Below, in pieces: positions 1,535-18,366 of a DNA stretch of 55,416 nucleotides. The stretch is taken from positions 1-55,416 of the forward strand of contig SOEU01000021.1 in NCBI GenBank assembly GCA_021646415.1, written 5' to 3'. Position numbers and translations under genes: made by a program. Source of the stretch: Candidatus Brocadia sp. (lineage in GTDB: Bacteria; Planctomycetota; Brocadiia; Brocadiales; Brocadiaceae). Within the stretch, counting starts at the first letter, position 1. The number at the start of each line of letters is the position of its first letter. A model generated the notes under the pieces. It did not search any database. It saw only the letters and a program-made list of their open reading frames with translations, and was not told the DNA's origin.

Positions 1535-1939
1535 TTATTCTGCCTTGACTTCAATCTTCCTTGGTTTTACATGTTCTGCTTTGGGCAAGACAAGAGATAA
1601 GACACCGTCAGACATCTTTGCCTCAATTTTATCCCTGTTAATGGCATCTGAGATAGCAAAGTGCCTGTGGTAATGCCCGATGTTATACTCATTATGTATT
1701 ATTTTCTCATCAATATACGCCTCCAGAGAAACTTCACCATTGATAACTAATTCATTGTTTCGTATATCAATCGCAATGTTCTCAGTGCTTACTCCCGGCA
1801 TATCGATTAAAATAGTAAAGTTGTCCGGGGTTTCATAAATATCAGCTAAGGGAAAGTACCAGTCTCCTTTCCCGGTTACGATACACCTATCAGGCGCAAT
1901 CTTCTTTTTTTCGATGGCTGGGTGTTCTTTTGTTTCCAT
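1535..1939 (-). CDS. Small heat shock protein, Hsp20/alpha-crystallin family
   Basis: A 134-residue protein with an alpha-crystallin domain at about residues 30-125: strands ending in TILIDMPGVSTENI, NELVINGEV, and the C-terminal KMSDGVLSLVLPKAE. A short basic tail follows. ATP-independent holdase that binds unfolding proteins and forms oligomers. AAGGAG precedes the ATG by nine bases. It follows a second, divergent Hsp20 by 21 bp, so the two probably form mixed or sequential oligomers from one transcript. Confidence 0.9.
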   Translation of the reverse strand: METKEHPAIEKKKIAPDRCIVTGKGDWYFPLADIYETPDNFTILIDMPGVSTENIAIDIRNNELVINGEVSLEAYIDEKIIHNEYNIGHYHRHFAISDAINRDKIEAKMSDGVLSLVLPKAEHVKPRKIEVKAE

Positions 1940-1960
1940 GAGAAGAATCTCCTTTTTTCG

Positions 1961-2410
1961 TTATGCCTTTTTAATTACAACTTGCTTTGGTTTTGTCTCT
2001 GCGGCCTTCGGAAGCTTTACCGTTAAAACGCCATTTTTGTAAGAAGCCGTTACTTTTTCCACGTCGGCCTTTTCAGGTAACATAATAGAACGGGCAAACG
2101 TTCCGTAGTTTCTTTCCCGGCGCAAGTACGTTATCTTCGCTGTGGTAGCGACAGGTTTTCTTTCCCCCTTGATTGTTAATACATCATCAACTACCTGGAC
2201 ATCCAGATCGCTGATCCTGATTCCGGGAATCTCTGCGCGAACAAGTATATTATCCTCGCTTGTAGATACAATAATCGGTGGAAATTCTGCGCTCACATAA
2301 CCTTCGGTTTGAGGTGCGGAACTCAAAATGTCTAATAAGTCACTCATCTCTCGCTGGATATGGGTAAGGCTATTTAAAGGATCCAATCGGTCCCATTTTA
2401 CAAGATTCAT
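1961..2410 (-). CDS. Small heat shock protein, Hsp20/alpha-crystallin family
   Basis: The start is placed at the ATG at 2410 because AGGAGG lies eight bases upstream; an in-frame GTG at 2419 overlaps that site. The protein has a typical Hsp20 N-terminal arm (WDRLDPLNSLTHIQREMSDLLD), an alpha-crystallin domain (ILVRAEIPGI, DVLTIKGERK, SYKNGVLTVKLPKA) and a C-terminal KPKQVVIKKA tail. First gene of the minus-strand stress run 2410-190. Any heat-shock promoter must lie in the 650-bp spacer upstream. Confidence 0.92.
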   Translation of the reverse strand: MNLVKWDRLDPLNSLTHIQREMSDLLDILSSAPQTEGYVSAEFPPIIVSTSEDNILVRAEIPGIRISDLDVQVVDDVLTIKGERKPVATTAKITYLRRERNYGTFARSIMLPEKADVEKVTASYKNGVLTVKLPKAAETKPKQVVIKKA

Positions 2411-3069
2411 TAATTTCACCTCCTCTGCTTAAAATAAAATCCATGAAAGAAATAATAATTATGCCCTCCGTAACTAAAAACAACATTTGAACCACTTCAA
2501 CCTCATAAATTTTTTCTTTCAGTAAGGTTTGTTTTCGACTCTTCTGTAATTATCCAAGATTTTAGACATCGAGTTCCATACTTCTGGATAAATTCCCCTT
2601 TTGGTTTTTTTCAAAAATTTTCGATTGTCATAAGTATGGAAATCATTTCTCCTGCAACTGTAACAGTTTATAAAAAATAATGTATCAGTTAATTTCCATT
2701 CAAAATCAAAAATAATCGTTAATAATGTAAATTTATATTCTGTTTGGCAATAAAGATGCCAATGAGTGAGAATTACTCCTAATTATCGTAATGGATGTCT
2801 TCGGGAGGTTCGTATATAAAAAAATATCTCATAATTTCCTTGGAAAAACCTCTTCCCTTAAATCTAATTAAATAGAATTTTGGTCTAAGATTCTTGATAA
2901 AAACATTCTTGAATTTAATCTTGCCGCTTGATTATGTTTTCCGTAACTACCCGATTTGATTATGGCTAGGATATATTTGTGCGATGTTTTTAAAGTCCGC
3001 CACTTTGGTATAATAATTGATTAGTTAAGAGAATCATCTTTTGAAAAGGACTTTTTTTCTGATAGAAAA
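2411..3069. other. Divergent intergenic spacer between stress run and nqr operon
   Basis: AT-rich, no open frame with coding character on either strand. It must carry promoters for both directions. On the plus strand a TATAAT lies at 3009-3014, but the expected -35 region is poor. An inverted repeat TTGGCA-N7-TGCCAA occupies 2744-2762 and could be an operator. No CIRCE element (the HrcA site) is seen. No remnant of nqrA was recognised in the spacer. Confidence 0.5.
2744..2762. promoter_or_regulatory. Inverted repeat TTGGCA-N7-TGCCAA, possible operator
   Basis: Perfect 6-bp arms with a 7-bp spacer in the divergent spacer, about 310 bp before nqrB and 335 bp before the first Hsp20 gene. Size and symmetry fit a dimeric regulator site, but a 6-bp arm can occur by chance in AT-rich DNA. 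Confidence 0.25.
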
Positions 3070-4143
3070 ATGCTTTCTTCCCTCAAATTCCTGAAACAGG
3101 AAATTATGCTCCGGGTGCTGTATTCGCTCATACCGGTTGCGATAGTGGCTGTCTATTTTTTTGGCTGGTATGTCGTAGGTATCATAGCCGTTTCAATGAT
3201 ATTTGCTTTCCTGACAGAATGGGTGATGTCCTCTTTGAGGAAGGGAAAAATAAGTTATGCGTGTTTTGTTACTGCCGGGATATATGCCCTTTCTCTCCCC
3301 CCAACCACACCATTGTGGATAGTTGCAATTGGCGCCATTATCGCTATCTTATTTGCGAAAGAGATGTTTGGGGGATTTGGAAAGAATGTATTTAATCCTG
3401 CTATTGTTGGGCGCGGCTTTGTTTTTGTATGCTTCCCTATCGAATTAACAGGACAGTTTGTGCCAGTATTTACGGGATTTCCCGGTGGATTTGGCCACTG
3501 GAGTGTAACAGCTTTAGAACAACCTGCGCAATATATTGCAGAGGCAGGGCTGAAAGTTGTCGATGCAATAACTTCAGCAACACCTATGTGGGCACATCGA
3601 AATTATAGTTACGAGAGTTCAATTCTTTCCCTGTTCCTTGGAAATATAGGGACCATCTTTGAATATGAAGGTCAAAAAATGGTCTTGGGTGCAGGTTCAA
3701 TGGGAGAGGTTTCAGCGATTGTAATAATGTTTTCATGTCTTTATTTATTATGGACCAAAACTGCAAATTGGCGCTTGACTGTAGCGACGTTGCTGGGGGC
3801 TTTAATCTCCTCAGTTGTTTTCAGATACGCTTTTGGTATTAAAACCATTCCCCAACCACTCTTTACCCTCTTTTCCGGTGCATTATTTTATGCAGCTGTC
3901 TTTATGGTCACCGATCCGATTAGCGCACCAAAGGTTACCCTGTCACAATGGATTTATGGCTTTTTTATCGGCGCCATGATAGTAGTTTTCCGTTATAAAA
4001 GCATTTTTTCCGGTGGCGCCGGATTTGCTATCCTGCTCGGCAATATATTAGCGCCCTCTCTCGATTTATGGATAACTCGTATGAAAAAACCCCAAATCCC
4101 CGAGAAAGGGACTGTATCAGAGAAAGTAACTGAATCGCCATGA
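3070..4143 (+). CDS. nqrB: Na+-translocating NADH:quinone reductase subunit B (NqrB/RnfD family)
   Basis: A 357-residue polytopic membrane protein of the NqrB/RnfD family. It has the family signature GGFGKNVFNPA at about residues 101-111 and the covalent-FMN site DAITSATPM, with Thr171 as the expected phosphoester-linked residue. A second conserved run is FMVTDPISAPK. It carries electrons through the membrane part of the complex and helps form the ion path. It is shorter than Vibrio NqrB (about 415), closer to RnfD. The genes downstream (NqrC, D, E and an NqrF-type reductase) argue for the Nqr branch. It overlaps nqrC by 4 bp (ATGA). The first subunit, NqrA or RnfC, is not encoded upstream. 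Confidence 0.88.
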   Translation: MLSSLKFLKQEIMLRVLYSLIPVAIVAVYFFGWYVVGIIAVSMIFAFLTEWVMSSLRKGKISYACFVTAGIYALSLPPTTPLWIVAIGAIIAILFAKEMFGGFGKNVFNPAIVGRGFVFVCFPIELTGQFVPVFTGFPGGFGHWSVTALEQPAQYIAEAGLKVVDAITSATPMWAHRNYSYESSILSLFLGNIGTIFEYEGQKMVLGAGSMGEVSAIVIMFSCLYLLWTKTANWRLTVATLLGALISSVVFRYAFGIKTIPQPLFTLFSGALFYAAVFMVTDPISAPKVTLSQWIYGFFIGAMIVVFRYKSIFSGGAGFAILLGNILAPSLDLWITRMKKPQIPEKGTVSEKVTESP

Positions 4144-4802
4144 AAAAAACATCTCCCGCATATATTCTCGGCTTCATGATAACCATTTGTACCGTATTTG
4201 GTACTGGCATTGCTTCCGTTCATTATGCAACACTTGATATGCTTATTAAAAACGAAAAATTGCATAAGAACAGGATTATATGCGGTGCATTTGATCTTCC
4301 TGTCACTGGCGTATCTGCTGATGCCTTTCAAAAGGCAATTGATGACAACATAAGCCATGAGCAGATAACTTATGAAGGGCGTACATGGGACATATATAAA
4401 CAAAAGGAAACCGGCAATATCGGCTTTGTCTTCAGCGGCACAGGCTTCTGGGACCGTATCTCTGGAATTATTGTACTTTCAGCTGACCTGTCGAAAATTG
4501 TGAATATTCAATTTCTCGACCAGAAAGAGACACCCGGATTGGGGGCGCGCATTGAAGAAGGTTGGTTTACCGATCAATTTAAAGGTATTTCCATTGCATG
4601 GGACCAACCGGCTGATAAGCGTATTATTGTAGGTCAGGCGCCGATTCCCAATGCAAAAAACCGGGTCGATGCTATTACTGGCGCCACACAGACGTCACTG
4701 GCGCTCATGAAGTTTTTAAACAGCGAGCTTGAGGCATTCAGAAAAGCAATGAAAGAACAAAAAGAAAAACCAATGCCTGAGATTCCTTTGCAGTGGGAAT
4801 AA
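4140..4802 (+). CDS. nqrC: Na+-NQR subunit C (NqrC/RnfG family)
   Basis: A 220-residue protein with one N-terminal membrane helix (residues 8-28) and a soluble FMN-binding domain. The flavinylation motif DAITGATQT is at residues 177-185, with Thr183 the expected FMN attachment residue; an ApbE transferase encoded elsewhere would be needed. LDQKETPGLGARIEE is the other family hallmark. The start overlaps the nqrB stop, pointing to translational coupling. It is followed by an unusual 169-bp gap before nqrD. Confidence 0.9.
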   Translation: MKKTSPAYILGFMITICTVFGTGIASVHYATLDMLIKNEKLHKNRIICGAFDLPVTGVSADAFQKAIDDNISHEQITYEGRTWDIYKQKETGNIGFVFSGTGFWDRISGIIVLSADLSKIVNIQFLDQKETPGLGARIEEGWFTDQFKGISIAWDQPADKRIIVGQAPIPNAKNRVDAITGATQTSLALMKFLNSELEAFRKAMKEQKEKPMPEIPLQWE

Positions 4803-4873
4803 CTGGATTGTAAGGAATTTCAAGCTTTTCGCCTCTCCCCTTAATCCTCCTCACTGAGGGGAACAACAACTGT

Positions 4874-4889
4874 CCCCCGCTGGCGGGGG
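4874..4889. repeat. GC-rich hairpin in the nqrC-nqrD gap
   Basis: A perfect 7-bp stem, CCCCCGC/GCGGGGG, with a 2-base turn, set in a C/G-rich stretch (about 4832-4893) unlike the surrounding AT-rich DNA. The rest of the operon is tightly packed. It looks like a small REP-like insertion, or a processing or attenuation site inside the nqr transcript. No T run follows, so a simple terminator is unlikely. Confidence 0.55.
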
Positions 4890-4971
4890 TGGAATTTTGT
4901 CGTAAAAAGGTGTACGTGTAAGTCGCTGAATGCCTAATTTAACATGCTTTTTTATTATATAAGGACATTAT

Positions 4972-5583
4972 ATGGCTTATACACCCAAACAAGTTTTTTT
5001 AAACGGTATCTGGCAGGATAATCCAATCTATCGGCAGGTATTAGGAATCTGTTCGACTTTGGCTGTCACCAATCTGCTGGCAAATACCCTGTTCATGTGT
5101 TTTGGATTAATCTTTACCACCGCGCTTTCCAACCTCACCATTTCACTGCTGAGAGATTATACTCCGAAGCGTATACGCATGATTATCCAGGTACTTATTA
5201 TCGCCTGCTACGTTATGATAGTTGATATCATCATTAAGGCATATGCTCCCGACATTCATCGCTTTATCGGTCCTTATGTCGGTCTGATCATTACTAATTG
5301 CATAATCATGGGAAGGGCAGAGGCCTTTGCCAGTCAGAACAAACCGCTGCTTTCACTTTTTGATGGTATTGCGTCAGGGGTCGGATATTCCCTCGTACTT
5401 ATCTTCATTGCATCAGTACGTGAGCCCCTCGGATTCGGCTCTATTTTGGGTATAACGTTGCCTGCACGCGATCTCTGGTGGCATTCATGGATCATCATGG
5501 TCATGCCTCCAGGTGCATTTTTTATGCTGGGCATGTTTACCTGGTTCGCCCGCAGGTGGCTGGTCAAGGAAGTAAAACGATAA
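4972..5583 (+). CDS. nqrD: Na+-NQR subunit D (NqrD/RnfE family)
   Basis: A 203-residue integral membrane protein with six predicted helices. The start NPIYRQVLGICSTLAVTN is typical of NqrD. Cys27 (LGIC) and Cys110 (ITNCIIMGRAEAFA) match the cysteines that, with two from NqrE, hold the intramembrane iron or FeS centre. AAGGA lies six bases before the ATG. It ends 10 bp before nqrE. Confidence 0.92.
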   Translation: MAYTPKQVFLNGIWQDNPIYRQVLGICSTLAVTNLLANTLFMCFGLIFTTALSNLTISLLRDYTPKRIRMIIQVLIIACYVMIVDIIIKAYAPDIHRFIGPYVGLIITNCIIMGRAEAFASQNKPLLSLFDGIASGVGYSLVLIFIASVREPLGFGSILGITLPARDLWWHSWIIMVMPPGAFFMLGMFTWFARRWLVKEVKR

Positions 5584-5593
5584 GGAGAATACC

Positions 5594-6199
5594 ATGGATC
5601 TGCAAAATATGAATTTTTTTGCATCACTTGTGCTTATTTTTACCTCAGCGGCATTTACCGACAATATTCTGTTAGCGCGTTTTCTGGGGATGTGTTCGTG
5701 TCTGGCAATCTCCAAAAAGGTAGATACCAGTATTGGTTTAGGCGGTGCAGTGATGTTTGTGACTGCAAGCACTACCGCGCTTAATTTTTTGATGTATAAA
5801 TATGTTCTTATTCCGCTGGGTATAGAGTATTTGCGCCTGCTAACCTTTATTGTTATTATTGCTGCCTTTACACAACTTTTGGAAATGATTATTGAGCGCT
5901 TTTCTGAAAAGTTGTACTATGCCCTGGGAATTTTTCTGCCACTCATTACAGTTAACTGTGCAATTTTAGGCATTGCGCTTTTTATGTTGAATAAGCCCTA
6001 TACATTCTGGCAGGCCTTTGCCTTTGGCGCTGGCGGAGGTTTTGGCTGGTTTCTCGCAATTACCCTTATTGGCGGTATCCGTGAGAAAATAAAAGAAAGC
6101 GAGATTCCGAAAGGTCTGGAGGGCCCTGCAATTACCCTTATTATTATCGGCATCATGGCATTAGCCTTTGTTGGATTCTCGGGAATGATAAAAATATGA
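5594..6199 (+). CDS. nqrE: Na+-NQR subunit E (NqrE/RnfA family)
   Basis: A 201-residue six-helix membrane protein, inverted-topology partner of NqrD. Cys34 (FLGMCSCLAISKK) and Cys122 (LITVNCAILG) complete the four-Cys intramembrane metal site. The C-terminal part reads GGIREKIKESEIPKGLEGPAITL, as in NqrE. AAGGAGA precedes the ATG. It overlaps nqrF by 4 bp. Confidence 0.92.
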   Translation: MDLQNMNFFASLVLIFTSAAFTDNILLARFLGMCSCLAISKKVDTSIGLGGAVMFVTASTTALNFLMYKYVLIPLGIEYLRLLTFIVIIAAFTQLLEMIIERFSEKLYYALGIFLPLITVNCAILGIALFMLNKPYTFWQAFAFGAGGGFGWFLAITLIGGIREKIKESEIPKGLEGPAITLIIIGIMALAFVGFSGMIKI

Positions 6200-7314
6200 T
6201 AATAGGCAGCATCCTTGTTTCTATCGGTATTTCAGTCGGTTTTCTTTTGATCACCGGAATGATTCTCGCGTTGCTTCTCATTCTTGCCGAGAAGAAGATC
6301 CTGAATTACGGTACATGCTGCATTGACATTAACGAGGGTGAAAAGAAATTACAGGTCACTGGCGGGGGGTCCTTACTGTCTTCACTTGCGGAGAATGAAA
6401 TATTTATTCCGTCAGCCTGTGGAGGACGCGGCACCTGTGCATATTGTAAGGTGCAGGTAATGGAAGGCGGGAGCATGATTAGTCCGGTTGAAGAACCTTA
6501 TCTGGGCCCCGAAGAGCGTAAAAACCAAATCCGCCTTTCCTGTCAGGTCAAGGTTCGAAAAGACATTAAGATCCATGTGCCGAAAGAATTATTGTCGGTC
6601 AAAAAATACAGGGGGAAGCTTCTCCATAAGAGACCATTGACATATGATATTATAGAACTGCGCATTGAACTCCTTGAACCGAACACCATAGATTTTGTTG
6701 CGGGACAGTATGTTCAGCTTGAATCCGAGGAGTATGATGGCCACGACCGGGTTATGCGTGCCTATTCCATGTCTTCTCCCCCATCTGATAAAAATCACAT
6801 CGAACTTATGATCCGTAAAGTTCCCAGTGGCATCTGCACCACCTGGGTATTTGAGCATCTCAAAGAAGAACAGGAAGTTACATTCAGCGGACCGTATGGT
6901 AAATTTCGTATTTCGAATACCGATGCAGAGATTATCTTTATTGCAGGCGGAAGCGGCATGGCACCGATCTGGGGGATGTTGAGAGACTTGAAAGAAAACG
7001 GAAATACGCGTAAAGCCACCTACTTTTTCGGTGCTCTCACACAAAAAGACCTGTTTTTTGTTGATGAACTGACCAAACTTCAGCAAGAAGTTTCCTGGTT
7101 CAGATTTGTTCCGGCGCTTTCCAAAGAACCAGAGGGGTCGGATTGGAAGGGCGAGCGCGGTCTTATCACCGAAGTTGTAGCACGCTACATGCCTGATTGT
7201 TCAAAAAACGAGGGTTATCTTTGCGGTTCGCCTGGCATGATTGATGCCTGTATCAAAGTCCTGACAGAAGCGGGTATGACAGAAGACCGCATTTTTTACG
7301 ATAAATTTGCTTGA
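6196..7314 (+). CDS. nqrF: Na+-NQR subunit F, NADH-oxidising 2Fe-2S/FAD reductase
   Basis: A 372-residue protein with an N-terminal membrane helix (residues 5-30), a plant-type 2Fe-2S domain (Cys75, Cys81, Cys84 in CGGRGTCAYC; Cys116 in RLSCQVK) and a ferredoxin-NADP reductase-like module. The FAD motif is RAYS at 188-191 and the NAD-binding loop GGSGMAP at 251-257. It ends in FYDKFA. It takes hydride from NADH and feeds electrons to the membrane subunits. Its presence, rather than RnfB with its many FeS clusters, is the main reason to call the operon Nqr and not Rnf. Confidence 0.93.
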   Translation: MIIGSILVSIGISVGFLLITGMILALLLILAEKKILNYGTCCIDINEGEKKLQVTGGGSLLSSLAENEIFIPSACGGRGTCAYCKVQVMEGGSMISPVEEPYLGPEERKNQIRLSCQVKVRKDIKIHVPKELLSVKKYRGKLLHKRPLTYDIIELRIELLEPNTIDFVAGQYVQLESEEYDGHDRVMRAYSMSSPPSDKNHIELMIRKVPSGICTTWVFEHLKEEQEVTFSGPYGKFRISNTDAEIIFIAGGSGMAPIWGMLRDLKENGNTRKATYFFGALTQKDLFFVDELTKLQQEVSWFRFVPALSKEPEGSDWKGERGLITEVVARYMPDCSKNEGYLCGSPGMIDACIKVLTEAGMTEDRIFYDKFA

Positions 7315-7335
7315 AATATTAAGGAATATCCGTGT

Positions 7336-7836
7336 ATGAAACTATCGCCTCAAGATCAGAGATTAATTCATAACTTGAAACCATCCAAATTTTCTAAAGA
7401 AGGCTTTTTAGGGACAGATACCCGTTCTGTGGAGGAAATCATTGCCGATGATTTAGATACGCTGAAAAAAACGGGTGTTTCAAAGGAATTGTTGCTGCAG
7501 ACATTGAGAGATGCCTATCAGAAAGCAAAAGAGGCCTTTGGGGCTGAAATAGAGATAAAAAGGAACGTGACGGCCGTGTTTTGTGAGTCAATGGGACGCA
7601 TTCCATCACCGTTTTGCAAGGACGGTCTCTTTGAAAAAGGTGAGGCTGTCGTTACTGATAGCGCCAGTAATCTGTCGCTTATTATTACGAGCCTGGGAAT
7701 AAATCTTATCGAAAAGCATGATTTTTTTCAGGGCAGAGGATGCAGGTTTAGAATCGATCCTCTGGTTGCGATAAAAATATTTAAGCTTTTGCCAGAGAGA
7801 ATTTTTTCGCCCCGACAAAAGCCTTCTAATGGGTGA
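7336..7836 (+). CDS. Conserved protein of unknown function downstream of nqrF
   Basis: A 166-residue soluble protein starting 21 bp after nqrF with AAGGA upstream, so probably on the nqr transcript. The N-terminal half is helical (VEEIIADDLDTLKKTG). The C-terminal half has two cysteines in CESMGRIPSPFCKDG and a run of strands and turns (GRGCRFRIDPL). I do not recognise the family. The position suggests a role with the Nqr complex, perhaps its assembly or regulation, but nothing in the sequence proves that. Confidence 0.75.
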   Translation: MKLSPQDQRLIHNLKPSKFSKEGFLGTDTRSVEEIIADDLDTLKKTGVSKELLLQTLRDAYQKAKEAFGAEIEIKRNVTAVFCESMGRIPSPFCKDGLFEKGEAVVTDSASNLSLIITSLGINLIEKHDFFQGRGCRFRIDPLVAIKIFKLLPERIFSPRQKPSNG

Positions 7837-8027
7837 CATTTCTTCTCTTTTGCGAAGCTGCCCTTCTTCAGACAAATGGTAGAAAAAGAATTTATACAAA
7901 AAACTTGATAATGCCTTATTTTTGATTATAGTATAAAAAAGGCTTTAAAGATTGAAGATTTAATCGTTTATGGGATTCGAAGTATAAAATAGGTGTCATT
8001 AAACCAAAGACAGAAAGGTGGTTAAGT

Positions 8028-8504
8028 ATGAGCATCACAAAGGAAGCTAAGGATTTAGTAGTGATGATCAAGAGGCTAATAACTTTCGATCTGGAAGATA
8101 TCCTGGATGGGGCAAGAAAAATTCCTCCAGGAGTAGTTGATATCCAGGTAAAGGATCGAGTAAAGAGCGGAGAAGACTATAGAACTATAAAGGTCTCTCT
8201 GAGCAACGAAAAGGCGTTAAAGGATTTGGATCTTGATAATCTTAAAAAAGTTGCGACACCCCAGGTTGTTAAAGCGGCTTCTCTTTTAAAAAGAAATATG
8301 TCTTTTGATCCAAAGGTAATATGCCAGGCACAGAATATGGTACCTCATGGGATGATTGAAATCTCAGTCACGAGCAGTGCTTCAACCGGCGTCGTAAATA
8401 ATAACAATAATTTCAATTCTAATAAAAGAAAAAAGAAAGATGCATCATCGGCCGATTCAGCTGTATATTGGCCCGATCAATTTGCTGAAATCGAGCCGGT
8501 ATAG
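8028..8504 (+). CDS. Protein with internal duplication next to a radical SAM enzyme
   Basis: A 158-residue protein with AAAGGTGG before its ATG. Residues 12-41 and 85-114 align without gaps (shared KR, FD, I, P-x-G, I-x-V), so the body is a tandem duplication of a ~70-residue unit. It ends in a different kind of sequence: Asn-rich (121-131), Lys/Arg-rich (132-137), then a Ser/Asp/Tyr/Trp-containing tail (139-158). The radical SAM gene follows after 61 bp on the same strand. Body plus low-complexity linker plus short distinct tail is what a RiPP precursor with a folded leader would look like, but a plain conserved protein is also possible. Confidence 0.6.
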   Translation: MSITKEAKDLVVMIKRLITFDLEDILDGARKIPPGVVDIQVKDRVKSGEDYRTIKVSLSNEKALKDLDLDNLKKVATPQVVKAASLLKRNMSFDPKVICQAQNMVPHGMIEISVTSSASTGVVNNNNNFNSNKRKKKDASSADSAVYWPDQFAEIEPV

Positions 8505-8565
8505 TGTATCATTTCCAGAATATTTCCAAGTCTGACAAGTATTCTGGGAGAACGAGCCAAATTTT

Positions 8566-10761
8566 GTGAAACAAAAATGCCCCGTGAGTCATAGTAGGGA
8601 TGTCGTCTTAATATTTCCACCACAATGGACGCCGATGCAACCCTACTTGAGCATACCTGCGCTCACTGCCTATTTACAAAACCATGGAATTTCGGTCAAC
8701 CAGTGTGACCTGAACCTGGATTTTTACGAAAAGCTGTTATCCCGGGGGCAGCTTCAACCTCTCTGCTGTAAACTGGAGCAAATCTTCCAGCAGTTAAATA
8801 AGAAACAATCCTTACGCCTGGAGGAACAGAGGTATTTCTATTCCATCTATCTGATCCGTAGTGCCTTTGATGAGGTGATATCAAAGATCGAAGAAACGAA
8901 GGATTTTTTTCGTTCCGAAGAAAATTTCTTTGATCTGAGTAAGTTGAGCATTCAAAAATCCATCTTGAATACCGCCATTAATATTGTGAATGTTAGCTGC
9001 AGGGTCGAGTTGGCTTTAGATGAACTCTGTTTTCCCATCGATGTAGAATCCTTTGAAGAGATAGCAAAATTTATATCTAGGGAAGAGAACAATTTTCTCC
9101 TCCGTTTTTTTCAAAAACAAATCGAAGATCTTTTAACATCAAAAAAATATCTGTTAGCTGGTATCTCTATTAATGATTCCAGCCAGTTGGTTCCAGCATT
9201 GACCATGACCAGATGGATAAAGGTACATCGCCCTGAGATCCACATAACAATCGGAGGGAATCTGCTGTCTCGTTGTATTGATGGGCTGAGAAACCTGCCT
9301 GATTTTTTTCGAAATTTTGCCGATAGCGTTGTAATATTTGAGGGCGAAAAGCCTCTGTTAAAATTGATCCAAACGATCAAAAATGGAAAGAAATTGGCAA
9401 ATGTACCCAATTTAATTTTCCTGGACTGCGAGAAGGTTGTCCAAACGGAAATGTGTCAACCGGAGGAAATCAACAGACTTCCTACCCCTGATTTTGATGG
9501 GTTGAAACTGGACAAATACTTTGCACCATTCCTGATATTACCGATCTTGAGTTCAAGAGGTTGCTATTGGGGAAAATGCACTTTCTGCGATCATAGTTAC
9601 ATTTATCGTGAAGGTTTTCAACAAAGAGATGCTGAACAGGTTGCAAATGATCTTCGTACCCTGAATATTAAATATGGTACCAGATATTTTTCATTTTCCG
9701 ATGAAGCTCTTTCGCCATCAGCATCACGCTTGATATCTGCAAAAATAATCGAAAGTAAACTAGATGTTTCTTTGCTGGCACAAGTCAGGCTTGAAACTGC
9801 ATTTTCGGATGAAATCTGCTCGTTGATGTCTCAAGCCGGAATAAAGATGCTCTTCATTGGGCTTGAATCTGCCAGCCTCAGAATACAGAAAAAGATCAGA
9901 AAAGGTATCAATTTTGACCTGGCACCAACAATTCTGAAGCGTTTTTATGAGGCAGGTATAATGGTACACCTATTTGTGATTTTTGGATTTCCAGAGGAAA
10001 CGGTGGAGGATAGTGAAGAAACCATCGACTTCATCTTGAAAAATAAAGACTACGTGTTTTCGGTAGGTGCTTCTACCTTTGCAATTGGAAGACATTCTCC
10101 GATCAGCCAGAATCCTTCCAAATACGGGGTTACTATTCGCTCTCATTTTTCTCCCAAACCGTTCTCATATCATTTCAATTTCGATTACTTAACCGGACAA
10201 ACCGAACAGCTGGTGTTGAATCTAAGGGACCGTTTTATGCAGCTTGCAATAAAAAAATTACAATTCGGGGCAATCTGGGGCAAATTGTTCCGGGAACAGT
10301 TTTTCTTGTATTCATTACAATACAAAGGGGATGATCTTCTGAAGGTTATCAAGAAATTTCATGATCTTGAAGAAAATCTTTGTGCTTCAATTGATGAGTC
10401 GGAAGTTGATATTTGCAACCACTACCCAATTATCAGGCAGGGTGTATACCTTAACCATTTAAATTTCGATATTCTCAAAATACAGGAGAATCTGAAAAAG
10501 GGGATCAATAAGGAAGTAAAACCGGAAAACAGCTATTTAATCTACGATCTTTATAGACAACATTCAACAAGAGTACCACCGGAAGGTTATGCAATATTAT
10601 TACTTTGCAACGGAAATTATACAACCGATGAAGTCATTAATGTACTGGCTTCGTTGCTGGCTATGAATTCGGAAGCCGTAAAATCAAAAGTAGATTCATT
10701 CTTTCATGAGATGAGAACACTCAAAATTCTCAAATTTCTGAAAAAACCTGAACTTCAATGA
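8566..10761 (+). CDS. B12-binding-type radical SAM enzyme with C-terminal PqqD/RRE-like domain
   Basis: A 731-residue protein. An N-terminal cobalamin-binding-like region (DVVLIFPPQWTPMQPYLSIPALTAYL, GGNLLSRCIDG) covers about residues 10-300. The radical SAM core is at about 325-560 with cluster cysteines 333, 338 and 341 (CYWGKCTFC, spacing CX4CX2C rather than CX3CX2C). GLESAS and FGFPEET are typical of the family. Residues about 670-725 (GYAILLLCNGNYTTDEVINVL... FFHEMRTLKIL) read like a PqqD-type RiPP recognition element. The start used is a GTG; the GGGAG is far upstream, so a slightly later start is possible. The likely role is radical modification of a peptide or protein, perhaps the 158-aa neighbour. 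Confidence 0.8.
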   Translation: MKQKCPVSHSRDVVLIFPPQWTPMQPYLSIPALTAYLQNHGISVNQCDLNLDFYEKLLSRGQLQPLCCKLEQIFQQLNKKQSLRLEEQRYFYSIYLIRSAFDEVISKIEETKDFFRSEENFFDLSKLSIQKSILNTAINIVNVSCRVELALDELCFPIDVESFEEIAKFISREENNFLLRFFQKQIEDLLTSKKYLLAGISINDSSQLVPALTMTRWIKVHRPEIHITIGGNLLSRCIDGLRNLPDFFRNFADSVVIFEGEKPLLKLIQTIKNGKKLANVPNLIFLDCEKVVQTEMCQPEEINRLPTPDFDGLKLDKYFAPFLILPILSSRGCYWGKCTFCDHSYIYREGFQQRDAEQVANDLRTLNIKYGTRYFSFSDEALSPSASRLISAKIIESKLDVSLLAQVRLETAFSDEICSLMSQAGIKMLFIGLESASLRIQKKIRKGINFDLAPTILKRFYEAGIMVHLFVIFGFPEETVEDSEETIDFILKNKDYVFSVGASTFAIGRHSPISQNPSKYGVTIRSHFSPKPFSYHFNFDYLTGQTEQLVLNLRDRFMQLAIKKLQFGAIWGKLFREQFFLYSLQYKGDDLLKVIKKFHDLEENLCASIDESEVDICNHYPIIRQGVYLNHLNFDILKIQENLKKGINKEVKPENSYLIYDLYRQHSTRVPPEGYAILLLCNGNYTTDEVINVLASLLAMNSEAVKSKVDSFFHEMRTLKILKFLKKPELQ

Positions 10762-10780
10762 GATCAGCGTAAATTCCGAA

Positions 10781-11116
10781 GGAATACCAGCCACCTTCGA
10801 CCTCTGCCAGGATATTGTGGAGCCGGGAGGATATATCGCCAACGTTGGCGTACACGGAAAGGCCTAACCCTAAAGCTGGACCGACTCTGGTTCCATAACA
10901 TCACGCTAACCACCCGTCTTGGAAGACACCGCGACCACCCCGATGCTCCTGACGCTGGTTTTGGCAGGATGGCCGTAGCCAAAAAACTTGATAGCGCACC
11001 ATTTTCGGCTGGAGGAGATCATGATGGCTTATGACACTTTCGGAAAATGCAGCGAAGGAGAAGGCCTTGAAGATCTTTTTAGAAAACACACTTATGGAGG
11101 CGAAGTGATCATCCAG
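10781..11116 (+). pseudogene. Remnant of a zinc-type alcohol dehydrogenase (3' part)
   Basis: Translation in shifting frames gives the C-terminal third of a medium-chain zinc alcohol dehydrogenase: ATFDLCQDIVEPGGYIANVG, then after a stop and shift LKLDRLWFHNITLTTRL, then DTATTPML, then NLIAHHFRLEEIMMAYDTFG. At least two frameshifts and several stops are present and the N-terminal two thirds are missing. It begins directly behind the radical SAM gene, so a deletion or rearrangement probably joined them. Confidence 0.75.
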
Positions 11117-11145
11117 TCAGGCAGGGCAGGCAAAGCCCTGCCTGA
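11117..11145. terminator. Strong hairpin after the dehydrogenase remnant
   Basis: A perfect 11-bp stem (TCAGGCAGGGC/GCCCTGCCTGA) with a 7-base loop. There is only a short AT-rich tail (AATAAATTT) and no true T run. It could be a terminator for the radical SAM transcript or a REP-like palindrome. Confidence 0.5.
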
Positions 11146-11257
11146 ATAAATTTCACCAAGACCATTTTCAATCCGATCTTCATGCAGAACGCTCCCAATT
11201 ACTCGGTTTTTGGTAGGTAGTGTCTATCCTACACGACTGGATTGATTCCCTGCAGTT

Positions 11258-11545
11258 TTACTTTGATGTTTTTGTGCCTGAAGGAGTTTTGTCTGTCCTG
11301 GCGATATCCTGACTGAGCATCTCAAGGATACGGCTTATGACTGCGACTTTTCCGCTGTAATCTGCTTCCTGAATCGGTTCGGTAAATCCCGATGTGCATA
11401 CAAGACGCACTGTTCTGTCATCCTTTTTAACAATGCTCCATTGAGCTTTTAATGCGATATGCGATTCTGAGAGAGTAGAACCGAGAGATTTTCTACAAGA
11501 AACCGGTTGATAATCTTCCTTCAGGGAACCAGCCCATCGGTCAAA
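11258..11545 (-). pseudogene. Remnant of a PqiC-like (ABC-type transport auxiliary) lipoprotein
   Basis: An open minus-strand frame of 95 codons ends in TAA and reads like the C-terminal half of the PqiC/DUF330 family: RWAGSLKED near the start, LKAQWSIVKKDDRTVRL, YSGKVAVISRILEMLSQDIA at the end. A stop interrupts it just upstream and the lipoprotein N terminus is absent. It is therefore a truncated, decayed gene. In intact systems the protein works with MlaD-like proteins in outer-membrane lipid transport. Confidence 0.55.
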
Positions 11546-11851
11546 TTAGGCAGAAAGCGAGAATTGTTCATAAAGAAACTAAAACCAGTAGTCCAAAATG
11601 AGCCGTTCGGTAGCAGATAAATGGTGAAAGTCGGGTAATAGAAATGCCAAAGATTATTCATTACAATAAGAGATTATTATTGATTACCATGCAAAAATTG
11701 GAATAAAATATTGAAAATCCGTATTCCTGTTTTAACGCCCTATCAATAGCAGGTTTTAAAAGTATTTAAACTATATTGATCTCCTGAAACGTAACGGACC
11801 AAAAATTATTGCCCATCATTATATAATTTTCGAATCAGGTAATTTCCTTCT
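11546..11851. other. Non-coding stretch before the thioesterase gene
   Basis: AT-rich, with no frame that reads like a protein beyond a possible shifted continuation of the PqiC-like remnant near 11550-11580. TATAAT occurs at 11822-11827, only 25 bp before the start codon, with no convincing -35 box. Confidence 0.4.
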
Positions 11852-12832
11852 ATGCCCAGTGTTCACTCCACCATGGTAGAAATGCTGCATCATGTCTTTC
11901 CCCAACATGCGAACCCCGCGGGTACCTTGTATGGAGGGTGGATGATGAACTGGATCGTTACGGCGGGAAACCTGGCTGCTTTACGGCTAACCAAAAGACC
12001 TTTACTCCTGGCCTCTATCGAAGATTTATTCTTTCTCCAGCCCGTCCGGATCGGTGACGTGGTTACCGTCAGGGCCATGATCGAATATATTGGAAATACT
12101 TCGCTGGAGGTGGAGGCCGTTGTATTCTGCAGGCCGTTAAACGAAGAAGAAAAACTCTGTACGCGTGCCAGAATGTCTTTTGTTTCCAGCGACGTTCAGG
12201 GTAAGCCAGTACCTATAGAACAGCATATAGAGCCTGCTGACGATAATGAAAGGAAAATGTATCAGTATGCCAGGAAGATACGGGAAAGAAGGTTTGCGCG
12301 GATAGCACAAAGAAAGCAAAGGGTGCTTGATACCGGTCTGGAAGATGTCGGACAACTCAGCCTTCGGGCACATCGGCTGGTTTTCCCGGAAGACGCTATT
12401 TACGGTAACCTCATGTACGGGGGAAAGCTCCTGCTCGTATTGGATGAGATTATAGCCATCGTGGCAATGAAATTCGCCAAAGGGACCATCGTAACGGCCT
12501 CACTGGACGCTTTGGATTTTTACCACCCCATTTATGTTGGAAATGTGCTCACCCTGGCAACTTCTCTCAATTACGCCGGCAGGTCTTCTATGGAGATTGG
12601 TGTAAAGGTCCTGGCCGAAGATCCGATCAACAATATCGTTCGCCATACCTGCACAGCTTTTTCTACCTGTGTCAAAGTGGACGGAAACGGCAAGCCGAGT
12701 CCCCTTACGCCATTTACGCCAGTAACCGATGTGGGGAAAAAACGCTGGGCCGAGGCTGAGCAAAGAAAAGAACACCGCATGCAAAGATTGAAGGACTTGC
12801 AGTCACAAGGGCTAAAAGGGTATCCGATATAA
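11852..12832 (+). CDS. Acyl-CoA thioesterase with two hotdog domains
   Basis: A 326-residue tandem fusion of two YciA/BFIT-type hotdog domains. Domain 1 (about 6-135) starts HHVFPQHANPAGTLYGGWMMNW; domain 2 (about 170-300) reads HRLVFPEDAIYGNLMYGGKLLLVLDE. Both keep the long central helix and the Asn/Asp region that activates water for thioester hydrolysis. Family members cleave fatty or short acyl-CoA. A short charged tail ends the protein. It stands alone, convergent with cstA. No clear Shine-Dalgarno is seen. Confidence 0.88.
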   Translation: MPSVHSTMVEMLHHVFPQHANPAGTLYGGWMMNWIVTAGNLAALRLTKRPLLLASIEDLFFLQPVRIGDVVTVRAMIEYIGNTSLEVEAVVFCRPLNEEEKLCTRARMSFVSSDVQGKPVPIEQHIEPADDNERKMYQYARKIRERRFARIAQRKQRVLDTGLEDVGQLSLRAHRLVFPEDAIYGNLMYGGKLLLVLDEIIAIVAMKFAKGTIVTASLDALDFYHPIYVGNVLTLATSLNYAGRSSMEIGVKVLAEDPINNIVRHTCTAFSTCVKVDGNGKPSPLTPFTPVTDVGKKRWAEAEQRKEHRMQRLKDLQSQGLKGYPI

Positions 12833-12884
12833 TAATATCAGAGTTGATCGCATGGTTCCGTTTTGTCCAGGTTGCGTGGTTTGT

Positions 12885-14657
12885 TCACTTTTCAATATCG
12901 TCTATAATGGGAACGCTCAGAGGAATACCTGTTTTAAAATTATAGAGCGTCTTGGCCGCAATGGTGATAATCCCCGAGGAGAGACCTAATAGTACCAGGT
13001 CTGCTATAATGAGTGTGATATTGCCTTGCGGAATAAAACGGGTAACGAGCAGGATTGCCAGCATGGCTATGGTGGTAATGATCATGAATACGGCTGGAAT
13101 GGCTGTAAACCAGATGCTCCTTTTTTGAGAAAGCAGCCAGAAGGACACGATGATTAGGGTCAAAGCCGCCAGAAGTTGGTTGGTCGTCCCAAATATAGAC
13201 CAGATATTATTTACCGTATTCCCGTATGCGAGTCCAAACATCAATCCCGCTGCCAAACTTGAATTAACCCAATAGTGGCTCAAAATCTTTGGGGGATTTT
13301 TAAAGATAACCCGCCAGAGTTCCTCAAAGAGATAACGATTCAATCTCACAGCCGTATCAAGTGTGGTAACAATAAACCCTTCCAGAAGTAACATGCCAAA
13401 GAGAATACCAAAAGATATCGGTAATCCTAATCCGGAATGCAGTGTGTGACCAAAAGCCACGGCAAAGGCCAATATGGGATTGCTTTGAAGCTTCGAGCCC
13501 TCTGCTGGTAAAACGAACTGTTTGTATTGGTGCATATCAATGCCCACAATGACCGTACTGATAACACATACGGCAAGGAAAGACTCCAGCAACATGCCGT
13601 AATATCCTATCTTGTGGACTGCTGCTTCTGATTTGACTTGTTTAGAGGTAGTTCCGCCGGCACAGAGGGCATGGAAGCCGGAGATAGCGCCACACGCAAT
13701 CGTGATGAAGATCCCCGGCCATAGAAAACCAACGTGGGAGATACCCTCCTGGATATTATTGACAGGAAAGCGCACCTCTGCGCCTCTGAGACCCGATGCA
13801 AAGATACCGATGAAAAGCAATCCCAGTCCGATGTAAAGCATGTGGACATTGATAAAATCCCTTGACTGAAGAAATAACCAGACCGGGACACCCGCTGCGA
13901 CTATAGTATAAAGGGAAATCAGGACCATCCAGAGTAACGGATTCAAAGAAATCGGCGCAAAAAAACCTGCGATAACTGATACAACACAGATGATGATTGC
14001 GAAGGCCGAGCACTTTGCAACGGAAACGTGCCTCTTGATATAAAGATACCCGATAAGTGGGGCAAAAAGGGTTATGATGATGACAGACATAGAGGCGATT
14101 CCACCAACGATAACCTTGCTTCCCGCGTCATCTGCCCAGCGAAAAAAGATCTGATCTTTGTTCAGGCCAATCTGTGAACTTTCAATTACGGATGTCAGGG
14201 CTGTTGCCGATGCGTTCAGGAAGGTGGCATTCACGAGGATCAGCATTACGATGGTAAATGAGATAACCATGATAAATCCTGCCGTACCCAAGGATTTTCT
14301 GGCAACTTCTGCAATGGATTTTCCACCCTCCCTTACGCTGACAAACAGGGCAGAAAAGTCATGTACCGCCCCAAAAAATATTCCGCCGATCAGTATCCAC
14401 AGCCAGGCAGGTCCCCATCCGTAGATCAGAGCCATAACCGGGCCGATAATGGGGCCGGCGCCGGCAATGGCTGCAAAGTGGTGTGCAAACACGATCGGTG
14501 TTGCCGTGGGTACATAGTCGCGTCCGTCGTTTATTTCAACCGCCGGCGTAATTCGGTTCGAATCGATCCCCATTTTTCTGGATAGGAATCGGGAGTAAAA
14601 ACGACCTGCCAGAAGAAAGCAAACAGTAGAAATAGACAGGAGTATAATTGGGTTCAT
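12885..14657 (-). CDS. cstA: Carbon starvation protein CstA family transporter
   Basis: A 590-residue membrane protein with about 15 hydrophobic segments. CstA hallmarks are seen near the start: DGRDYVPTATPIVFAHHFAAIAGAGPIIGP (given as two parts, residues 45-59 and 60-74) and FFGAVHDFSALFVSVREGGKSIAE, and later GFHALCAGGTTSKQV. Relatives in enteric bacteria import pyruvate or peptides on starvation. It is shorter than E. coli CstA (701) and close to the compact form seen in anaerobes. It is a single gene, convergent with the thioesterase. Confidence 0.92.
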   Translation of the reverse strand: MNPIILLSISTVCFLLAGRFYSRFLSRKMGIDSNRITPAVEINDGRDYVPTATPIVFAHHFAAIAGAGPIIGPVMALIYGWGPAWLWILIGGIFFGAVHDFSALFVSVREGGKSIAEVARKSLGTAGFIMVISFTIVMLILVNATFLNASATALTSVIESSQIGLNKDQIFFRWADDAGSKVIVGGIASMSVIIITLFAPLIGYLYIKRHVSVAKCSAFAIIICVVSVIAGFFAPISLNPLLWMVLISLYTIVAAGVPVWLFLQSRDFINVHMLYIGLGLLFIGIFASGLRGAEVRFPVNNIQEGISHVGFLWPGIFITIACGAISGFHALCAGGTTSKQVKSEAAVHKIGYYGMLLESFLAVCVISTVIVGIDMHQYKQFVLPAEGSKLQSNPILAFAVAFGHTLHSGLGLPISFGILFGMLLLEGFIVTTLDTAVRLNRYLFEELWRVIFKNPPKILSHYWVNSSLAAGLMFGLAYGNTVNNIWSIFGTTNQLLAALTLIIVSFWLLSQKRSIWFTAIPAVFMIITTIAMLAILLVTRFIPQGNITLIIADLVLLGLSSGIITIAAKTLYNFKTGIPLSVPIIDDIEK

Positions 14658-14818
14658 TTGATGAGAGATAACTTTCGTAATTTATATTGAGCGAACTAGC
14701 ACTTGGAAATTATCAATGTAATGAGAGAAATTAAAAATCAAAGATAAAAGGTACCTATCAAAATGTAAAATTATCATTGAATTCAGCAATAAATGAACAC
14801 AAAATTTACGCAGAAAGA

Positions 14819-16000
14819 TTATGGGCTACAGGCAATGCAGGTAAACAGTGCGGGACCCATGGAGAGCACGTCTTCATCCAATAAGAATCGGGAACTGTGT
14901 AATGGCTGACTAGTACCCTTTTCCAGGTTTCCCGATCCCAGAAAAACATAGGCACCTTTTATTTTTTCCAGGTAATAGGAAAAATCTTCTCCACCCATCT
15001 TGGGGTCTATATGCTCCACTGATTTACTGCCGAATAGTTCGATAATTTTGTTCTGTATAAAATCTGCCTGCGGTTGTGGATTGTTGAGTGGAGGGTGACC
15101 CTTAAGATACTCGAATTGGTATGTTGCATTATTGAGTGAAGTGATTCCTCTAATGGTCTCCTCCAGTACTATCGGCATCTTATATCTTAATTCCTTGGCA
15201 AGGGTTCTTACCGTACCAATGATTTTGACTTTATCCGGGATGACGTTAAAAGTTGTGCCTCCCGAAATTTGGCATAAAGAAACCACACAGGGAGACAGAG
15301 GATTTACTTTTCGTGAGATAATAGTCTGAATTGCTAATATCACCTCGGCAGCGATAACGATAGGGTCTATACACAGATGAGGTGTGGAGGCATGCCCGCC
15401 TTTTCCTATAATGGTAATGACAATGCGGTCTGTTGCCGCCATTGTGGCTCCAGCCCGTACCCCAAAGGTACCGGATGGTATATTCGGTTCAATATGCAAT
15501 CCATAGATTTCATCTACGTCGTGTAAGACACCCTGTTCTACCATAAGTTTTGCACCGCCTGGATGCTGTTCTTCGCAGGGCTGAAAGATAAATTTTACCT
15601 GCCGCTTGAGTTTGTCCTTTAGCTGCACCATAAGTTTTGCGGCTCCCAGGAGCATTGCCATGTTAGCATCATGACCGCAGGCGTGGGATATTCCCTCATT
15701 TTGGGATTTAAATTCAAGATTGTTTTCCTCCAGTATGGGCAATGCATCCATATCAGCCCGAAAGGCAACGGTACTGGATGCTCCGTCAACGTGCAGGGAA
15801 CCAACGACGCCTGTTTTTGCAATATCTGTTTGTACGTGAAGCCCCAATCGTTTCAATTCCTCAGCAATAACACCAGAGGTGCGAATTTCAGTAAAACCAG
15901 TTTCAGGATGTTTGTGGAAATCCCTCCGCATCCTGATAACGTAGTCGTGTATCTCTCTGGCATGGGCCAGTATTTCCTGTGTAAGTGGTTTCATTTGCAT
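14819..16000 (-). CDS. M20 family amidohydrolase (N-acyl-amino-acid deacylase type)
   Basis: A 393-residue M20D peptidase-like enzyme. Metal and catalytic motifs are in order: FRADMDALPI, HACGHDANMAMLLGAA, FQPCEEQHPGGAKLM, GLHIEPN, GKGGHASTPH (dimerisation-domain His), and MGGEDFSYYLE near the C terminus. Such enzymes hydrolyse N-acyl amino acids. The next genes upstream on the same strand encode an epimerase and a DUF1611 protein. In the DgcN/DgcA route an N-acetyl-L-glutamate deacylase completes the pathway, so this is a natural candidate. A 280-bp repeat-bearing gap separates it from them, so it may have its own promoter. Confidence 0.9.
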   Translation of the reverse strand: MQMKPLTQEILAHAREIHDYVIRMRRDFHKHPETGFTEIRTSGVIAEELKRLGLHVQTDIAKTGVVGSLHVDGASSTVAFRADMDALPILEENNLEFKSQNEGISHACGHDANMAMLLGAAKLMVQLKDKLKRQVKFIFQPCEEQHPGGAKLMVEQGVLHDVDEIYGLHIEPNIPSGTFGVRAGATMAATDRIVITIIGKGGHASTPHLCIDPIVIAAEVILAIQTIISRKVNPLSPCVVSLCQISGGTTFNVIPDKVKIIGTVRTLAKELRYKMPIVLEETIRGITSLNNATYQFEYLKGHPPLNNPQPQADFIQNKIIELFGSKSVEHIDPKMGGEDFSYYLEKIKGAYVFLGSGNLEKGTSQPLHSSRFLLDEDVLSMGPALFTCIACSP

Positions 16001-16089
16001 GGTCTGTTTTTTTAATGGTTATTATGCCCTCTCAACTATAGTGAACGACTTAAGTTATGCCTTCGGCGACTTTTTAAATACTCTTCGCT

Positions 16090-16113
16090 GGTTCAATCGT
16101 CCCAGATTGAACC
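16090..16113. repeat. GGTTCAATC hairpin, copy 1
   Basis: A perfect 9-bp inverted repeat, GGTTCAATC/GATTGAACC, with a 6-base loop. Related units lie at 16180-16202 and 25965-25988, so it belongs to a dispersed hairpin family. It lies in the gap between the amidohydrolase and epimerase genes. Confidence 0.6.
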
Positions 16114-16179
16114 GAAACATTTGGCATGATTCCTTGTTACAGCACAAGTTTAGGCCTTAGAGTGCCATTCAAACTATAT

Positions 16180-16202
16180 GGTTCAATCTGCAAGGTTGAA
16201 CC
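16180..16202. repeat. GGTTCAATC hairpin, copy 2
   Basis: GGTTCAATC, 5-base loop, GGTTGAACC: one base of the stem differs from copy 1, leaving a G-T pair in the transcript. It sits 67 bp from copy 1. Confidence 0.55.
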
Positions 16203-16251
16203 AGCTCTGGGCTATATTTTTTAGACATAAAATAACATCGTGCAAGCTCAA

Positions 16252-16275
16252 CACGGACAAACAAGTTTGTCCGTG
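16252..16275. repeat. Palindrome CACGGACAAAC/GTTTGTCCGTG
   Basis: An 11-bp perfect inverted repeat with a 2-base centre, ending 6 bp before the stop of the epimerase gene (minus strand). It could end that transcript. The right arm plus following bases recurs at 131-149, so it is also a dispersed repeat. Confidence 0.6.
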
Positions 16276-16280
16276 CCACC

Positions 16281-17321
16281 CTACAGAGACAGTAAAGGCA
16301 TACTGTTACGTGCCTTTACTCCTAATCCGTTACCTGCTGGTAATGTTAGTTTTCCCTTATCAACTGTTACCCCGATGTAAGGGTCATTTGTAACAAGCAG
16401 ATTTCCGTCAAGATCGATATAGTCAACTAATGACATCAGGTGGGCCGCAGCTGTGATTGATACCGAACTTTCGATATTGCAGCCGAGCATTATTTCAAGA
16501 TTATGGGCCCGGGCTGTGTAAATCATCCTGATGGCCTCACGGATTCCACCACACTTCATCAGTTTAATGTTGATCCCGTCCACTGCATCTGAAAATGCAG
16601 GTATGTCTTTTGAATCTTTTATATCTTCATCAACAAAGACAGGGATTTTTGTGTGACGTCTGACCTTCCTCAGCGATTCAATGCTGCCGACCGGAAATGG
16701 CTGTTCTACAAGTTCAACCCCGAGATCTTCCATAAGATTCAACTTTTGTATTGCCTCATCCAGCGTCCAGCCTGTATTGGCATCAACGCGGAAAATGGCC
16801 TTGGTAATTTTGCGCAGCTCCTTCAACATCTCGATGTCGTCCTTAAAACCCACCTTTATTTTGAGCACGGGGAAATCCTTTGCCTCCTCCACCTTTTTGC
16901 ACGTCTTTTCCATGGTGTCAATTCCTATGGTGAATGATGTTGTCTTTACTTCATGCCGGTTTAAGCCCAACAACTTATAGAGCGGTACTTTGAGTTTTTT
17001 GCCGATCATATCATGGAGGGCTATGTCAATTGCCGCTCGCGCAGCCGCATCCAGGGGAAATTTCTTTTTGAAATGAAAGGTAATGTTTTCTGTTTGGAAA
17101 GGATCGGTGTCTTTGAGCAAGTCGAGAGACTGAACAAATACCTTGGTAACACTCGTTATATCTTCTCCAAAAAAGCTGGAGGGTGCGGCTTCTCCACATC
17201 CGATAATTCCGTCTTCGTCTTTTAACAGAGTTACAATATTATTTTGAACAGTACGGGTTTCTCTGGCAATCTGGAAAGTGTGCTTCAATTTCAAATCTAA
17301 GGGATGGAAGGAGAGATTCAT
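16281..17321 (-). CDS. Enolase-superfamily epimerase (dipeptide epimerase / N-acetyl-D-glutamate racemase type)
   Basis: A 346-residue muconate-lactonizing-type enolase-superfamily enzyme. Catalytic lysines appear in KIK (154-156) and NIK (Lys253). Metal ligands are Asp180 (RVDANTGW), Glu206 (VEQP) and Asp231 (VDED). Classical members epimerise L-Ala-D/L-Glu. A close subgroup (DgcA) racemises N-acetyl-D-glutamate and is encoded beside a DUF1611 protein (DgcN), exactly the arrangement here, with a 4-bp ATGA overlap. Context therefore favours the DgcA role, though murein dipeptide recycling cannot be excluded. Confidence 0.88.
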   Translation of the reverse strand: MNLSFHPLDLKLKHTFQIARETRTVQNNIVTLLKDEDGIIGCGEAAPSSFFGEDITSVTKVFVQSLDLLKDTDPFQTENITFHFKKKFPLDAAARAAIDIALHDMIGKKLKVPLYKLLGLNRHEVKTTSFTIGIDTMEKTCKKVEEAKDFPVLKIKVGFKDDIEMLKELRKITKAIFRVDANTGWTLDEAIQKLNLMEDLGVELVEQPFPVGSIESLRKVRRHTKIPVFVDEDIKDSKDIPAFSDAVDGINIKLMKCGGIREAIRMIYTARAHNLEIMLGCNIESSVSITAAAHLMSLVDYIDLDGNLLVTNDPYIGVTVDKGKLTLPAGNGLGVKARNSMPLLSL

Positions 17322-18355: not shown

Positions 18356-18366
18356 AAGAATACATA

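Follow-up and report, generated by a model that had tools for sequence, protein, structure and literature searches.

The locus

We analyzed a 55,416-nucleotide stretch of DNA from Candidatus Brocadia sp. (contig SOEU01000021.1), which we call the window; it makes up one contig of a 3.8-Mb genome. It contains two genes on the same strand, P0001 and P0002, with a gap of 61 bp between them (Table 1). Both open reading frames are where a preliminary description of this DNA had placed them. That description read the pair as a possible new RiPP-like system: P0002 would be a B12 radical SAM enzyme with a leader-binding (RRE) domain at its C terminus, and P0001 would be its partner, with a tail that could be the modified core. 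No protease, exporter, or immunity genes lie within the two-gene unit.

Table 1. Features of the P0001/P0002 locus (positions in the window).
Feature	Position	Strand	Description or basis
P0001	8028..8504	+	158 aa; proposed substrate/precursor; no family match
P0001 repeat unit 1, residues 5-48	8040..8171	+	Local alignment vs. shuffles
P0001 repeat unit 2, residues 78-121	8259..8390	+	Local alignment vs. shuffles
P0001 linker, Asn-rich (124-132) then Lys-rich (133-137)	8397..8438	+	Sequence
P0001 C-terminal tail DASSADSAVYWPDQFAEIEPV, residues 138-158, candidate core	8439..8501	+	Sequence
P0002	8566..10761	+	731 aa, GTG start; cobalamin-type radical SAM enzyme, C-terminal RRE fold
P0002 B12-binding Rossmann domain, C-terminal half, residues 184-264	9115..9357	+	Pfam B12-binding
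P0002 radical SAM core, residues 329-490	9550..10035	+	Pfam PF04055, E 1e-16
P0002 CX4CX2C cluster motif CYWGKCTFC, residues 333-341	9562..9588	+	Cysteines invariant in family alignment
P0002 PqqD-like/RRE winged-helix domain, residues 614-726 (about)	10405..10743	+	Pfam, AlphaFold, structure comparison
Two-gene unit, probably moved horizontally	7867..10774	+	blastn of window 1-20000 vs. G021 region; alignment over both junctions
Sigma-70-like promoter candidate TTGATA-16-TATAGT, 5' of P0001	7905..7932	+	No better than chance

We rejected several other candidate features. Promoter-like sites upstream of P0001 are at chance level (4 sites, versus 2.1 ± 1.6 in shuffled sequences). A hairpin between the two genes had z scores of -1.55 and -0.08 and is not conserved in the second copy of the locus (in genome G021; see below). 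A 166-aa open reading frame upstream (7336-7836) was excluded from the unit because it lies outside the block that the window and G021 have in common; its region is conserved in congeners that lack the pair.

Short dispersed repeats are present at 7773-7854, stopping just before the left edge of the unit, and at 11114-11237. They have many copies across genomes of the genus Brocadia. To the right of the unit, positions 10775-11080 appear by eye to be a decayed gene for a zinc alcohol dehydrogenase; this region reads TFDLCQDIVEPGGYIANVGVHGK.

The pair is shared between two anammox genera

The second copy of the pair is in a genome from the genus Loosdrechtia (G021). Across 20 kb, the only DNA that this genome has in common with the window is a 2.9-kb block (92.3% identity) that contains a leader region of 160 bp, P0001, P0002, and 13 bp past the stop codon. 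The flanks are unrelated on both sides. Within the unit, dS is 0.23-0.26; for chromosomal (housekeeping) orthologs from the same two genomes, DNA identity is about 74% and dS is saturated (above 2). Because the block is so similar between unrelated flanks, while orthologs elsewhere have diverged to saturation, the simplest account of the sequences is that P0001 and P0002 were transferred horizontally between the two genera as one unit. Candidate toxin-antitoxin-like small genes are found on the flanks of the G021 copy. A comparison to an empty site was abandoned: the flanks are too rearranged for one to be defined.

P0002 has a radical SAM core and a PqqD-like C-terminal domain

The preliminary description had called the CX4CX2C cluster motif of P0002 odd, but it is kept in all 11 full-length relatives. 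The three cysteines (C333, C338, and C341) are also invariant in the aligned relatives that lack the C-terminal tail. The motif is thus a family-wide feature and does not set P0002 apart. The B12-binding domain is matched weakly in P0002 (Pfam E 0.13); 10 of the 11 relatives match it, with a best E of 8.5e-8. The best NCBIfam model for P0002 is TIGR03975 (RiPP maturation radical SAM C-methyltransferase; E 3e-36), and its score of 125 bits is far below the curated cut-off of 281.85 bits, so P0002 is not assigned to that family. Cobalamin-type radical SAM enzymes mostly carry out methylations (PMC5682303). By analogy to its family, P0002 most likely catalyzes a C-methylation, and other radical chemistry is possible.

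At the C terminus of P0002 alone, the PqqD signal is weak: the Pfam E value is 0.14 with the full sequence as query and 0.016 with the C-terminal slice, and there is an NCBIfam match to WgkC at E 0.0075. But PqqD was found in all 11 full-length relatives, with a best E of 1.9e-10. When residues 608-731 were modeled with AlphaFold from nine sequences, the prediction had a pLDDT of 89 and a pTM of 0.77, with strands followed by three helices. Using Foldseek and VIA-align, the matches of the predicted domain included TglHI, TbiB1 with its leader, PqqD, and lasso B1 (Z of about 10-11 for the last three). In this model, P0002 has the features that define RRE domains: homology to PqqD and a winged helix, with strands before three helices. 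The proposal of a PqqD-like RRE end thus held up, both by profile and by predicted structure.

RRE domains normally bind the leader of the substrate (PMC7470986). They are mostly N-terminal, but are C-terminal in proteusin epimerases (PMC8326336). The fold alone does not prove that P0002 binds a peptide, because non-RiPP proteins match it as well: Rv2067c (Z 11.6), GdmN (9.6), and PKMT2 (8.7), with PKMT1 also listed. Similarly, the authors of RRE-Finder name radical SAM enzymes from non-RiPP contexts as one source of false positives (PMC7470986).

P0001 has a duplicated body and a conserved tail

P0001 contains an internal duplication, as the preliminary description had claimed. The two units align locally with a score of 54, versus 26.5 ± 4.4 for shuffled sequences, and none of 1,000 shuffles reached 54. 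The predicted structure from the single sequence (pLDDT 41) is too poor to tell whether this body is folded, and just two near-identical sequences of P0001 are available, which give no usable profile or structure. The body is followed by the Asn-rich, Lys-rich, and tail segments, also as described previously. The tail is acidic and aromatic, and linker and tail together look unstructured.

Comparing the window to G021, residues 117-137 of P0001 have no nonsynonymous and 3 synonymous changes, and residues 138-158 have no nonsynonymous and 4 synonymous changes. With 0 nonsynonymous versus 7 synonymous changes over the linker and tail (residues 117-158), the tail is maintained as protein. Across all of P0001, dN/dS (omega) is 0.07, and purifying selection acts on the entire protein, tail included; the sequences do not demonstrate stricter constraint on the tail than on the body.

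P0001 has no family match in Pfam, NCBIfam, PADLOC, or PHROGs, and no meaningful sequence match in PDB. We considered whether it has an NHLP (proteusin) leader, and rejected this. It does not match the NHLP leader profile TIGR03793, and a suggestive pairwise match had an E of 0.13. With an HMM built from 16 NHLP leaders, P0001 scored 1.4 bits, which is at chance level (313 of 5,000 shuffles scored as high). The earlier statement that no known RiPP class could be recognized therefore stands.

Occurrence of P0001 and of tailed enzymes

P0001 was found in 2 of the 33 Brocadiaceae genomes sampled, namely the window's genome and G021, and it is absent from the remaining genomes of a 294-genome sample of the phylum. 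A pattern search of species genomes, and searches of plasmids, phages, and viral contigs, found no relatives. Searching 39 genomes with an HMM for the repeat unit found no further relatives either; the other matches were weak, short fragments. Had P0001 occurred independently of the enzyme, this would count against the proposed pairing, but both genomes with P0001 also carry P0002, a co-occurrence of two loci, with genomes very near to the window possibly omitted from some collections.

The relatives that share the tail of P0002 are full-length (710-735 aa). Among Dehalococcoidia, 12 of 393 genomes encode such an enzyme; others come from the rest of the Chloroflexota, from Ca. Methanoperedens and Methanosarcina, and from locus L034 of a further anammox genome (G015). 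Tail-less paralogs are carried by nearly all Brocadiales, often beside argG. In a tree built from the common core, P0002 and its G021 copy are on a long branch; the nearest sequence by path is from locus L082 of Dehalococcoidia, and the tail-less paralogs from Brocadiales are elsewhere. The PqqD-like tails cluster on this tree, yet several gains or losses are needed to explain their distribution.

Nitrospirota genomes, many of them from Nitrospira nitrite oxidizers, have tandem pairs of tail-less B12 radical SAM paralogs from the P0002 family (L102, L111, L112, L113, L115, L117, L119, L121, L124, L127, L128, L130, L136, L141, and L142).

Gene neighbors of the tailed relatives

No other RRE-tailed enzyme has P0001 beside it. 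Some of these enzymes do have other small proteins as neighbors. First, in Methanosarcina UBA11020 (L104, 4421-9959), the tailed ortholog is in a RiPP-type cluster, with a SPASM-type maturase, a second B12 radical SAM enzyme, and a peptide of the Os1348/NHLP clan (9729-9959, minus strand; E 1.3e-15).

Second, tailed enzymes from planctomycetes have a charged peptide of 55-75 aa, ending in [FY]ED[VT]ADK, directly downstream. These EDVADK-type peptides were found in all 14 loci of one planctomycete subclade that have readable downstream DNA, and their genes mostly overlap the stop codon of the enzyme. Those that we tested have no match in Pfam or NCBIfam, and they look like an undescribed family of RiPP-like precursors. 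(The loci are L062-L068, L070, L071, L074, L077, L078, L138, and L139. The peptides are rich in Lys and Glu and end with FDFEDVADK, KFEDVADK, or DFEDTADK; FG-GAP/UnbV_ASPIC proteins adjoin some of the loci.) A motif common to the C termini of P0001 and these peptides, F-x-[DE]-[VI], is too short to count. At L069, L072, and L073, related planctomycete enzymes are followed by pairs of short acidic peptides that end in EGFTGQEM/R and contain stretches of the LDLDLDE type, and L072 has an additional small peptide that ends with REDIADK.

Third, L082 (Dehalococcoidia A328) encodes the closest relative of P0002 that we found outside of the anammox bacteria. Here a 63-aa peptide with an Asn-rich end and a strong ribosome site (5661-5852, plus strand) lies 137 bp upstream of the tailed enzyme, with a terminator-like hairpin in between. 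The peptide aligns weakly to repeat 2 and the Asn run of P0001 (p 0.008, not corrected for the roughly ten places examined).

Other contexts lack such a partner. In 9 of the 12 Dehalococcoidia loci, rdhA-like genes (called from a twin-arginine start, with no profile used) are within five genes of the enzyme, and there is no peptide. (These are L238, L239, and L241-L247; the enzyme is at times beside rdhA or in tandem, as at L243.) The Methanoperedens loci have no evident small partner on the same strand. The architecture alone therefore does not imply that a RiPP precursor is adjacent. Overall, the contexts in L104, in planctomycetes, and perhaps in L082 favor peptide substrates for the tailed branch.

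Two other anammox loci deserve mention. Both Loosdrechtia genomes have a three-gene cluster (L049, 7844-12794; L050, 8606-13553) that encodes a 418-aa protein with a weak PqqD match, a 433-aa radical SAM protein, and an 804-aa B12 radical SAM protein with a PqqD match; this may be a further RiPP-like system. In G015, L034 contains a radical SAM protein similar to the YydG epimerase (17286-19979, minus strand; E 2.8e-27, below the cut-off) near a small protein of 103 aa.

A proposed function for the pair

Joint function of P0001 and P0002 is best supported by their adjacency and apparent co-transfer as a closed pair. We propose that they are a self-contained, horizontally moved modification pair, in which P0002 is an RRE-guided, cobalamin-type radical SAM enzyme and P0001 is its RiPP-like substrate. 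We consider this proposal to be evenly balanced between right and wrong. The C-terminal domain of P0002 would grip P0001, with the duplicated N-terminal units as the recognition or leader region. The B12/radical SAM core would then modify the C-terminal part of P0001, probably by methylation, and the tail would be the core. As the unit includes no protease or exporter, removal of the leader, if it occurs, would be performed by host functions encoded elsewhere.

The RiPP-like reading in the preliminary description is thus upheld in part: the RRE match, the linkage, and the conserved tail are there, while P0001 matched no known leader or family profile, and it is a putative substrate with its tail as a candidate core. 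Several results count against our proposal: the Dehalococcoidia orthologs that lie beside rdhA-like genes with no peptide, the PqqD-like folds in non-RiPP enzymes, the lack of a match between P0001 and known leader families, the absence of P0001 beside any other RRE-tailed enzyme, and a co-inheritance that comes from two genomes.

Alternatively, P0002 could act on something else, such as a cofactor, a lipid, or another protein, and P0001 could be its dedicated adaptor, chaperone, or regulator. The linkage and co-transfer fit this as well. At 158 aa and with a duplicated body, P0001 is closer to a protein domain than to a short leader, and neither Methanoperedens nor most of the Dehalococcoidia have a small partner for their orthologs of the same architecture. 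Two points count against a helper: the disordered-looking Asn/Lys tail is perfectly conserved despite synonymous divergence, and the usual ligand of an RRE domain is the substrate's leader (PMC7470986). We view a helper role, the main rival, as unlikely; a substrate role, although an even call in itself, is the likeliest form of joint function and ranks ahead of it.

Less probable again is that the PqqD-like tail is a dimerization or structural element of an enzyme with a cellular role (for instance, in metabolism tied to corrinoid proteins or reductive dehalogenases), with P0001 as a loosely associated neighbor. The fold may be such an element in Rv2067c, GdmN, and PKMT2, which are among the top structure matches. 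Also, the rdhA-like genes in Dehalococcoidia and the tail-less paralogs next to argG that are common in Brocadiales would fit such a role. But the transferred block holds P0001 besides the enzyme and nothing more, and tailed relatives from planctomycetes have conserved small peptides whose genes usually overlap the enzyme's.

We doubt very much that the pair is a selfish or competition island with an antagonistic or self-protecting (bacteriocin-like or defense) product: this would account for its mobility and agrees with its sporadic presence in the family, its recent transfer, and the toxin-antitoxin-like candidates beside the G021 copy, but the unit lacks immunity, export, and protease genes, and PADLOC, which assigned neither gene to a defense system, gave no convincing model (P0001 had no match, and P0002 had a single weak one, over its radical SAM core), with nothing useful for either protein from the defense and phage libraries.

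More tentatively, and with somewhat less confidence than in the substrate proposal itself, we suggest that the pair may represent a new, minimal, mobile two-gene class of RiPP-like system. In this class, the protein modified by a tailed B12 radical SAM enzyme would have a duplicated leader, and the modification would fall in its Asn-rich or acidic/aromatic tail. The class would be part of a wider, undescribed RRE-tailed superfamily with unrelated small partners, which might include the EDVADK peptides of planctomycetes and the Asn-rich peptide from a Dehalococcoidia genome.

Comparison to known systems

To our knowledge, anammox bacteria have not been obtained in pure culture by ordinary means. 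If our proposal is correct, these bacteria carry a two-gene peptide-modifying unit that can be transferred between genera and is simple enough for tests in E. coli. Also, a branch of enzymes would gain a substrate: we found none described, in the literature that we searched, for RRE-tailed B12 radical SAM enzymes with CX4CX2C. This branch spans Chloroflexota, methane-oxidizing archaea, and planctomycetes.

TIGR03975 (rSAM_ocin_1) has the same B12-binding and radical SAM architecture as P0002, but its match to P0002 stops at residue 525, short of the RRE tail. A tail-less paralog from Brocadiales (L041) scores higher against this model than P0002 does (140 versus 125 bits).

Among proteusins, the PoyD-type epimerases of polytheonamide biosynthesis have a C-terminal RRE domain, as P0002 does (PMC8326336), and PoyC, from the same system, is a B12 radical SAM peptide methylase (PMC5682303). 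P0002 resembles PoyC and PoyD by description. In contrast to proteusin precursors, P0001 does not have a nitrile-hydratase-like leader, as judged by the profile test.

The tailed orthologs from Dehalococcoidia, Methanoperedens, and Methanosarcina (L082-L087, L104, L118, and L122) are full-length and co-linear with P0002, at about 30-36% identity. They share its PqqD-like tail and CX4CX2C motif, but have no adjacent homolog of P0001. The planctomycete loci are like the window's pair in that a related enzyme with a PqqD-like tail is paired with a small neighbor whose C terminus is conserved. The EDVADK peptides differ from P0001 in being encoded downstream, in their length (55-75 aa), and in their unrelated sequence, and they offer a larger and directly testable set.
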